Source: Apostichopus japonicus (Eukaryota > Echinodermata > Holothuroidea > Aspidochirotida > Stichopodidae). From it: a stretch of DNA of 64,000 nucleotides. Shown piece by piece: positions 33,812 through 63,251 of this stretch. How positions within the stretch are numbered: position 1 is the first letter of the stretch; every line of letters begins with the position of its first letter. The stretch is taken from the NCBI RefSeq assembly GCF_037975245.1, contig NC_092561.1, positions 8,120,001 through 8,184,000 of the forward strand, given 5' to 3'. The position numbers and the translations under genes were made by a program. The notes below the pieces were generated by a model that was given only the letters and a program-made list of their open reading frames with translations, was not told the origin of the DNA and did no database searches.

Positions 33812-36800
33812 TCAGATCGGTTTCCGATACATGTAACAGTTGAATAACCAGCTGAAAACGACTGGTGTCCTCTCTGGTGCTGAGGAAATTGCAGCTAAAA
33901 TAGACAATAGCCTGTCGGGTTGAAGAAAAGTAAAAGACGTTTCATTCGGTCAGTGAAAGTTAAAATTAGTAATATTTGGTTACGAACTTACGATGCCGAA
34001 TGGTGAGTAACCTTTGCAATCATGCTGGTGTGCGTGTACGTGTCCGTGTGCAGGTGCCTGCGCATGTGCGTGTCTTTGCGTGCGTGACGGGCAGCTTGTA
34101 AACACGATATCTCAAGAAGCACAAGTTGAGTCGATGTCATACTTGGTAGGTTGATGCCCCATGATGTTGTGTACATGCTATGGTTGTGGTATATATATAT
34201 ATATATATATATACATATATATATATATATATATATATATATATATATATATATATATATATATATATATATATCATATCTCTTCAACCGCATGTCCGAT
34301 TTTCTCATACTTGGTAATGGGCTGTAAGTACATATTAAGTACATGTTTTTTGCAACAACAACTTTTACCTTATTGTAATTCAAGTGTGGGTGGGGTTTAA
34401 TTGAAAATCATGGAAAACGGATTGTAAACACGATATCTCAACAAACTCATTTCAAGTCAATGTCATAGTTGAGAGAGATGCCATATGATTAGTAGATATG
34501 CCATATTGGATCCCATTCATGATTATTAAGGAGTGGGCGGGGTTTATTATAAAAAATAAAAATATGTCAATATCTTTGCAACCGTATGTCCGATTTAGTG
34601 TATACTTGGTATGGTGATATAAGTACAAAGTATGTACATGTTCCTAGCAACAACAATTTAGCCTACGTTTTTGGGCCCATCTGACCCCCCCAAAAAAAAC
34701 CGGTTGCAGTTTCTATTTCCCCCTCAAATTCATTTTGAGATACATTCTTTGGGCCCGAATTTGTGAGGCTGAAACTTTTAGGGACCATTTGGGCCCACAT
34801 TTCTTGGGGTTCAATTTTGGGTGGCAAACTTATTTTTTGAGTCAGTTTGTTTGCACCATATAGTTTGAGGCCCATTAAGGCGCCAAAGTTTATTGGGTCA
34901 AATATTTCTTGGGAAGGGGCCAACATTTTAAAAATGCAATAACTCCACAACTTTTAAATCGGATTGTAACCAAAATTGGAACACAGTTGTTGGTTAAATA
35001 GCTGGTTCATGTATAGGTAACATCATCAATGTGCAAAGTTAGTTAGCTAATGTTTATTCATAAATTAAAACTAGAATTACGAAAAGACTTGTAAAATGGT
35101 CAATCATTGTTGGATTATGATGAGAGTTATAGCTATCTTCATGATTTATAATGCCTGTTAGAGTGATTAGGACAATGTTGTTCATAGGTGTCCGTTGACT
35201 ATTTTGTTGATTGTGGACTAGGGAGGGGGAGGGGAGGAGGAGGGGGGAGGGGGCCTTAGGATTGGGGCTAAATGAAAGCTCTTCCATCTTCTCATCGTTG
35301 CTAAGATAGAAAGAATACTTGCCTCTTCGTGAAAATCTCAACCTGGTCCCCTTCCTCCGGGAATTTTTGGCTATACTCCCTCAATGTTCCAGTGGACTTC
35401 AAGAAACCGACAAATTCGTTGATATTATCGTACTGTCGCTTAGACGTTACCTGAAAGCTACATATAGAACAGATTGAGCTAGCATACTCTTATGTCACAA
35501 AATGTATACAATCGAATCGTATGAATTCCTGCAATATATGAATTAATTCAAATATATCAAAGACAAAAACAAAAACCTGTATCCATACGGCTAATTGGAT
35601 AAAAAAACTTTACCGTTCTGAAGTGATTATCGGGACGTGACATGCGCATAATGGGTTTCTTGAAACCTGTTTTTTTTTATCCTCGGCATTAACTGAAAAC
35701 GTGTCATTTCTATATATATATCAGCATGTGTTTCCCAACCACCACGACAGAACTTCTGTGAAGAACTTGAAATTTTCCCAGAAAACACCGTCGAAAGATT
35801 CCATTCATTAAGCAGTACCACATTCATTATACTCGATTAGCCGTAACATTAAAAAATTGCTGTGACAAATTGTTTCACCCGATTTTTCATATGACGTTTA
35901 TTGACGTTTATGGTGGTATATAAGTATGTTAACTTAACCATGCACATGAAAACTGCTTTACTTACTGGTATGTATCAGGATATTCTGGGGTTGGATACGA
36001 CCCCGATGATACCACCTTCTTGGTGCCTTCTCGCATGATCCGTAAGCTTGCTGCGACAAACTATGAAAGAGACCCCAAAAAACAAAAACAAAAATCGCAG
36101 CGGAATAATTCATAGTCATCGGATGTCAAACGATGATCAGGACTGCAAAATGGCGCTGCAACTAATATACGATACAGTATGTACCGGTATATAGGGCGGT
36201 CATAAGGTGACATGCGAGAGTTACCATGTTAACATAACGCGACATCTCGACAAAATTTAGAACCTTTGTCGGGATACCGACTTACGCTGACTTGCACATC
36301 TCGGTAAAATCTGCTAAAATGTCGAGTTACCATGTTAGCATTACACGGCATCTTGACAAAATATAGAATTTTTGTCGAGATACCGAGTGACGCTAACTCG
36401 ACATCTCAAATTTTAAATCTTTCCGGGGAGATGTCAATATTCAATATTTTGGCGAGATGTCGTGCTATGCTAACATGATAACTCTACATCTCGCATGACA
36501 CCTTATGACCGCCGTAGGTATACGGTTTAAACAAAAGTAAATGGAACAGATATTTGAATTCATGCCGGACATTGTCCGAAAGTGCAAGGGAGAACTAAAT
36601 CACTTTTTCGTGTATAGGTGGAAAGAGATTTCATGGTCACAGTAATAATAAAGTAAACTCCACATTACGATTATGTTTGGTAGTATACAAGTAAAGCCAT
36701 CCTCGATGGAAGTAGAAAGGTTATCTTGGGCCTGTATAGAAGTAGTATATAATACAATGTGCCAGTTTCATGGTTTATTTTTCAACAACGTTTTATCGGT

Positions 36801-62461: not shown

Positions 62462-63251
62462 TCACATCGGTTTCTTATACAGATAGCAGTTATGAAGCAA
62501 GCTTAAAACCACAGGTGTGCTTTCTGGTGTTGACGAAGTATCAGCCAAAATAGACAACAACCTATCGGTTCAAGAAAAAAGACATTTCAGTAAGTCGTTG
62601 GAAGTTAGAAATGATATCTACTTGTGTTACTTTGATTTCCAATCCATTTATTAAAACGTGTGTTGTATTAGTGGTTGAATTGATAGATGATGACATCTTT
62701 CCGATGATCTACTTGCCTAACGAATTATCAGTATATAGTTCATTAGGCCTATCCACTTCCTAAATAATTTGTCCTGCACAAAAAGCCATATTGTATCTGA
62801 ATTTATAAACAATACGAGTCGTTGGAAGTTAGCAAGGAAAAGTCTGATTGATGTCAATGTCAGTTATTCAAATCTGCTGTTTTCCTAGTCGATGACTTAA
62901 TGAATAGATTACTGGCACCAGTCGATATCAACAAATTATCAGTATCTTATTTATAATGCCTCTCCACTTAATAATACACAATACTGTATCGTATCGGAAC
63001 TTTAAAAAATGGAAACTTGAAGAGAGTGTGGGACAACGTAATTGTTAGGTTAAAACAGAATAAATAAGTAGACAAATAGAAAAAGACTATTATAAAAGAT
63101 GTAAGAATATATTTGCCTTTTCTTCAATCTGTCAACCTGGTCTCCCTCCTCCGGGAATTGCTTGTTATACTCCTGCAATGTTTCCGAGGAGTTCAAGAAA
63201 CCAACAAATCCGTCAATATTGTCGTACTGCCGCTTAGAAGTCACCTGGAAG
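62462..63251 (-). CDS. SAM-dependent methyltransferase D, last two exons (gene continues past the window)
   Basis: Exon 5 (63,117-63,251, 135 nt) encodes [20 protein letters not shown] ... EEGDQVDRLKK and the last exon (62,462-62,561, 100 nt) encodes LLSILADTSSTPESTPVVLS ... YLYKKPM. Lengths and phases equal those of A and C. The intron donor after exon 5 is AG then GCAAAT, again GC-AG. Exons 1-4, with the SAM-binding motifs, were not found up to 64,000 and should lie beyond it on the right. Intron 5 shares TTCATTAGGCCTATCC and GCCATATTGTATCTGAATTT with intron 5 of C. Confidence 0.82.

Follow-up and report, generated by a model that had tools for sequence, protein, structure and literature searches.

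Structure of the locus and gene models

The DNA analysed here, referred to as the window, is a stretch of 64,000 nucleotides (C1:8120001-8184000) of a genome of 671.6 Mb in 35 contigs. This genome size and the presence of introns point to a eukaryote, presumably an animal. It contains three complete copies and the end of a fourth of a cluster of five SAM methyltransferase genes (A, B, C, D and E; C1:8153812-8199537). The gene models were obtained by reading splice sites around coding islands in the window and the neighbouring DNA. After splicing, A, B and C each form a single open frame from ATG to stop (Table 1). Only exons 5 and 6 of copy D lie in the window; the complete gene is situated at C1:8188705-8182462 on the minus strand and encodes 281 aa, with exons 1-4 at C1:8184677-8188705. 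The fifth gene, E (C1:8199537-8193255, minus strand, 281 aa), lies outside the window, and a dispersed sixth copy, F, with exon lengths as in the cluster, was found on C2 near 4.29 Mb. In all six modelled genes (A-F) the internal acceptors are AG and the donors GT, except that the donor of intron 5 is GC in A, C, D and E. All six keep their reading frames and splice sites intact. At the protein level A and B are 64.9% identical, A and C 71.8%, B and C 64.7%, C and D 73.9% and D and E 95.4%; F shares 56.3-59.6% with the other copies.

A sequence-only reading of the window had marked the span 33812-63251, which extends from the last base of the stop codon of A to the first base of exon 5 of D. 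It had proposed paralogous SAM methyltransferases in both orientations with intact frames, and Pfam and the splice models bear this out. Splice reading likewise reproduced the exon lengths given for A, B and C (129, 155, 232, 95 or 92, 135 and 94-100 nt, with closed frames), and the supposed tail of a fourth copy proved to be the last two exons of D, the whole gene extending beyond the window. Two counts had to be revised: the proteins had been predicted at 281, 298 and 280 aa, which is right for A and C and becomes 279 aa for B, and the family of four copies, correctly seen as paralogous, has five genes in the cluster, as E lies past the end of the window.

Table 1. Positions in the window of the methyltransferase copies and their exons.
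Feature	Position	Strand	Remarks
Copy A	40254 to 33812	-	281 aa
Copy A exon 1	40126..40254	-	129 nt, ATG at 40254
Copy A exon 2	38400..38554	-	155 nt, SAM motif LDVGCGSGQ
Copy A exon 3	36926..37157	-	232 nt; Tyr-Phe (AIYFF), His-aromatic in the other five copies
Copy A exon 4	35966..36060	-	95 nt
Copy A exon 5	35323..35457	-	135 nt, GC donor
Copy A exon 6	33812..33911	-	100 nt, to stop
Copy B	47403 to 53626	+	279 aa
Copy B exon 1	47403..47531	+	129 nt
Copy B exon 2	48634..48788	+	155 nt
Copy B exon 3	50673..50904	+	232 nt
Copy B exon 4	51756..51850	+	95 nt
Copy B exon 5	52434..52568	+	135 nt, GT donor
Copy B exon 6	53533..53626	+	94 nt; protein end 2 residues shorter than in A
Copy C	58807 to 55684	-	280 aa
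Copy C exon 1	58679..58807	-	129 nt
Copy C exon 2	57767..57921	-	155 nt
Copy C exon 3	56996..57227	-	232 nt
Copy C exon 4	56554..56645	-	92 nt
Copy C exon 5	56146..56280	-	135 nt, GC donor
Copy C exon 6	55684..55783	-	100 nt, to stop
Copy D exon 5	63117..63251	-	GC donor
Copy D exon 6	62462..62561	-	to stop

The models were examined by leave-one-out splice-aware alignment; for D and for E, both of these copies were left out. For all six genes the identical model was regained, with scores of 817.3-977.6; the null for this alignment (eight copy-free stretches on both strands, 16 rows) ranged from -3.9 to 9.6. Mononucleotide shuffles of the coding sequences of A, B and C gave an open frame in 0 of 2000 cases each. 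An open spliced frame, intact splice sites and a dN/dS below 1, features expected of a functional gene and not of a pseudogene, were all found. Lone exons outside the five genes were not detected when the rest of the window and C1:8180001-8220000 were searched by tblastn with exon peptides: with exons 1-3, 5 and 6 of A and C the matches outside genes had E values of 0.2 or worse, and with exon 4 of A, B and C they had E values of 1.4 or worse among the best 30 rows. The tandem cluster is real, but as an expansion of a known type of enzyme it is nothing unusual. Careful models are of use here, because a family of five genes with short exons, donor sites of the GC kind and an active site that differs by a single residue could easily be garbled by automatic annotation.

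The window also contains repetitive DNA. Long open frames seen on either strand at 37473-37838, in intron 2 of A, are spurious and stem from an ATG / GATGAC microsatellite. Retroelements have left reverse-transcriptase pieces (RVT_1) at 10045-11217 and at 44782-45333, both on the plus strand, the second of them between A and B.

Family assignment of the proteins

The proteins match Pfam Methyltransf_11 with E values of 1.6e-21 (A), 2.7e-22 (B) and 7.8e-21 (C), corresponding to 75.0-79.7 bits against a curated cut-off of 21.2. In the SAM motif DxGCGxG the residues D51, G53, C54 and G55 are invariant in the six copies and in seven family members. Judged by these motifs and profiles, the proteins are class I SAM-dependent methyltransferases. 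After about residue 167 no Pfam family scored above its cut-off, and none of the NCBIfam matches listed did so (25 of 52 for A, 25 of 37 for C).

The PDB was searched with a profile built from seven members of the family; 60 of the 115 matches were listed. The best was 4hg2, 'Methyltransferase type 11' (E 2.2e-17). Entry 3g5t, listed as trans-aconitate 3-methyltransferase, which we take to be yeast Tmt1, was the 11th-best (E 8.4e-11) and matched at profile positions 45-143 only. Nearly all of the matches listed fall within the SAM core, at about residues 45-150, a region common to methyltransferases of many substrates. An exception is 9e72, the HvrF methyltransferase, a weak match that spans 11-235 (E 1.9e-6).

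Prokaryotic relatives were surveyed for motifs in the best 80 of at least 353 loci, two of the 80 being archaeal (L097 and L099), with loose patterns sought anywhere in the stop-to-stop frame. The start motif Y-x-x-[YFHA]-R-P-x-[YW] occurs in 63/80 of them, a share that is biased upwards because the 80 are the best-scoring of these relatives. The His-aromatic pair was seen in 68 of the 80, both motifs together in 60 and neither in 9. In the cluster this pair consists of His at residue 120 followed by Tyr or Phe (HY/HF) and is carried by B, C, D, E and also F; A has Tyr-Phe (YF) at residues 120-121, and the distant paralogue G described below has Gln-Tyr (QY). Prokaryotic class I methyltransferases of the YxxYRPxY ... 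QAAHWF plan thus have the start motif and the pair in common with the family, but differ in their tails, which are mostly of the WP/FP type (21 of the 25 prokaryotic tails listed); the tail NCxxY[RK]K was found in 0/62 relatives that carry a slightly stricter start motif. The sequence-only reading had taken start and tail to distinguish the family from bacterial trans-aconitate methyltransferases. A start motif peculiar to animals was rejected in view of its frequency in the relatives, and only the tail retains this distinction. This implies that the start ties the family to prokaryotes and that the tail separates it from them. Weak relatives were also met on viral contigs (23 loci, E 6e-9 or worse).

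Proposed activity

Our preferred reading, which we hold to be probable, is that the five-gene cluster, which arose by repeated DNA duplication, encodes small-molecule SAM methyltransferases that most likely methylate carboxylates. The Rossmann core (DxGCGxGQ, GIDRS) would bind SAM, and an N-terminal lid formed by the YxxYRPxY segment may close over a small substrate, as may the poorly conserved cap encoded by exons 4-6. The acceptor of the methyl group would most likely be a carboxylate that the His-aromatic pair (residues 120-121) holds in place, as in the juvenile hormone acid methyltransferase (JHAMT) of insects and, by analogy, in yeast Tmt1/Crg1. The genes are presumably expressed, and the copies may differ in substrate through the cap. 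Carboxyl O-methylation would be the activity of most copies, with carboxylate binding changed or weakened in A, and the enzymes probably serve to modify or detoxify small organic acids. Since the PDB matches are mostly confined to the SAM core, the assignment of a carboxylate acceptor draws on motif resemblance.

The resemblance is to JHAMT. In the enzyme of the spruce budworm, CfJHAMT, His115, Trp116, Tyr7 and Gln14 are reported to hydrogen-bond the carboxylate of the substrate, which is kept next to the cofactor, and methyl transfer by proximity was proposed (PMC13223930). The H115Q and H115N variants are reported to keep 36% and 56% of the activity, respectively, and H114A to abolish the activity of Tribolium JHAMT (PMC13223930). 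The His-aromatic pair is also present in B-F, its equivalence being judged by motif and not by alignment or structure. JHAMT did not appear in the PDB listing (60 of 115 matches), and there is no sign of a juvenoid substrate here.

A reading that we consider less probable is that these SAM methyltransferases have an acceptor of another type and act by phenol or enol O-, N- or C-methylation on a small molecule or a lipid. Phosphoethanolamine N-, sterol C- and sugar O-methyltransferases are also among the profile matches in the SAM core, some of them better than 3g5t, and the protein beyond about residue 167 has no Pfam match above cut-off. The joint occurrence of start motif and His-aromatic pair in the 60 relatives counted above argues against another acceptor, and so does the reported carboxylate-binding role of this pair in JHAMT (PMC13223930).

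The yeast enzymes Tmt1 and Crg1 (PMC3197675 and PMC3153492) are also class I SAM methyltransferases that act on small molecules, and the likeness is one of analogy; the profile match to 3g5t has the limited extent given above, and the genes here have six exons. Tmt1 is reported to form methyl esters of trans-aconitate, and Crg1, its sequence homologue, to methylate cantharidin in vitro (PMC3197675). As these related enzymes are described there as having divergent substrates (PMC3197675), the substrate is not readable from family membership. A paralogue series like the present one may help to show how an enzyme that methylates small molecules comes to change its substrate.

Genes that go under the names 'putative methyltransferase DDB_G0268948' or 'C25B8.09' probably belong to the same eukaryotic family, as we assume. 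The first name appears in a chicken paper (PMC8672471), the second in an Aplysia paper (PMC11488329). For jhamt-like genes, frequent duplication and lineage-specific expansion in arthropods are reported, as are homologues from echinoderms, lancelet and acorn worm (PMC10015273). Because such expansions in arthropods are already documented there (PMC10015273), the cluster is no new kind of system. A literature search over titles and the beginnings of abstracts yielded nothing on the cluster itself, and the family is not claimed to be unpublished.

Origin of the cluster

In addition to the six genes, seven more distant loci of the genome were modelled, of which L015, L016, L018 and L019 are unreliable at the 3' end and L019 also at the 5' end. 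A tree was built from 18 rows, with L015, L016 and L019 left out, L018 kept, and nine hand-picked loci out of the 80 prokaryotic ones added. All nine rows from this genome group together, apart from the nine bacterial rows (support 100/98), and within this group the copies branch as (F,(B,(A,(C,(D,E))))). The groupings C+D+E (94/94) and A+C+D+E (85/78) are both below the 95/80 mark of the tool.

The GC donor sites of intron 5 were located at 35317-35322 (A), 56140-56145 (C) and 63111-63116 (D) of the window and at 3911-3916 of L010 (E); the corresponding site is GT in B, F, G and L014. This distribution fits a single change of the splice donor in the lineage ancestral to A, C, D and E, passed on through the duplications. 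D and E reside in abutting repeats of about 10.7 kb (C1:8178806-8189357 and C1:8189483-8200354). Taken together, the tree, the pattern of intron 5 and the abutting repeats indicate that the cluster expanded by duplication at the DNA level, with one or more inversions, and not by retroposition.

The abutting repeats, along with the low divergence of the D and E coding sequences (dS about 0.045), are also what would be seen if D and E were two alleles of one gene that the assembly had placed in tandem. This is unlikely in our judgement, as the introns of D and E differ at 2.5-7.7% of aligned sites and the largest aligned piece of the repeats spans 6943 columns, with 91.4% identity and 296 gap positions; the divergence between the repeats is patchy. 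A divergence of this size would be expected to exceed the usual allelic difference. Two neighbouring genes remain our reading of D and E.

The one exon plan had at first been taken as the mark of the cluster. As such a hallmark it was rejected, because a similar plan is found in the distant paralogue G (L013/L020; C1:5.92 Mb), which is 38% identical to C and has exons of 123/155/238/95/132/97 nt, and in L014 on C8, which is 28% identical and has exons of 138/161/226/95/135/106 nt. The exon plan predates the cluster and was inherited from an older family.

Divergence of the copies

Pairwise dN/dS among A-F was 0.19-0.32 in 14 of the 15 pairs by the NG86 method and 0.21-0.36 by maximum likelihood (ML); the remaining pair, D-E, gave 0.48 and 0.63, respectively. 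Where A, B and C differ, third codon positions are favoured. Divergence was mainly under purifying selection, and the NG86 ratios make long-dead duplicates unlikely. The sequence-only reading had spoken of a retained, diversifying family and not of dead duplicates; intact frames and mainly purifying ratios agree with retention, whereas 'diversifying' is not borne out by pairwise ratios well below 1.

Among seven blocks of the coding sequence exon 4, which is located in the part of the protein that has no match to a known family, showed the highest dN in 12 of the 15 pairs (the exceptions being A-F, B-C and C-F). Between D and E, seven of the 13 amino-acid differences are within codons 172-183. 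Positive selection on exon 4 was nevertheless not accepted, because the adjoining non-coding flank is unusually diverged as well (18 of 135 sites in the 150 bases before exon 4, as against 2.0-4.1% in the five other D-E flanks tested, of exons 3, 4 and 5) and because the stretch was picked after the data had been seen. The pattern of the flanks fits patchy divergence or conversion. Against this caution, codon 172, which holds one of the seven differences, is the last of exon 3 and thus separated from exon 4 by the intron; the flank there is only 2.0% diverged. The fast change of exon 4 is compatible with divergence in substrate, but also with weak constraint.

The cluster might represent an arsenal of copies with different substrates, in which A acts on a non-carboxylate or with another acceptor geometry and the exon 4 cap sets the specificity. 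The change from His-Tyr to Tyr-Phe in A, without signs of decay, is the basis for the place of A in this proposal, which we regard as speculative and rather improbable. That some copies are instead decaying or silent duplicates whose frames are merely still open is very improbable: A has lost the His, the tail of B is shortened, the D-E ratios are raised, and pairwise ratios average old history and would hide a recent relaxation, but the ratios of the other 14 pairs are low, the six genes are intact, and the branch of A (0.16) is about as long as that of C (0.15), though that of B is 0.26.

Other features of the window

Two further coding regions were recognized, both on the minus strand. A 455-codon open frame at 5847-7211 encodes a family 10 fucosyltransferase (Glyco_transf_10, E 1.5e-42), and the open frame at 26351-27469 resembles positions 10-264 of the 499 of a UDP-glucuronosyl/glucosyl transferase profile (E 1.3e-14) and is probably part of a multi-exon gene. 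At 19461-20452 a 12-bp minisatellite (unit GAATGCCAATGG, about 82.6 copies) gives rise to long open frames on both strands.
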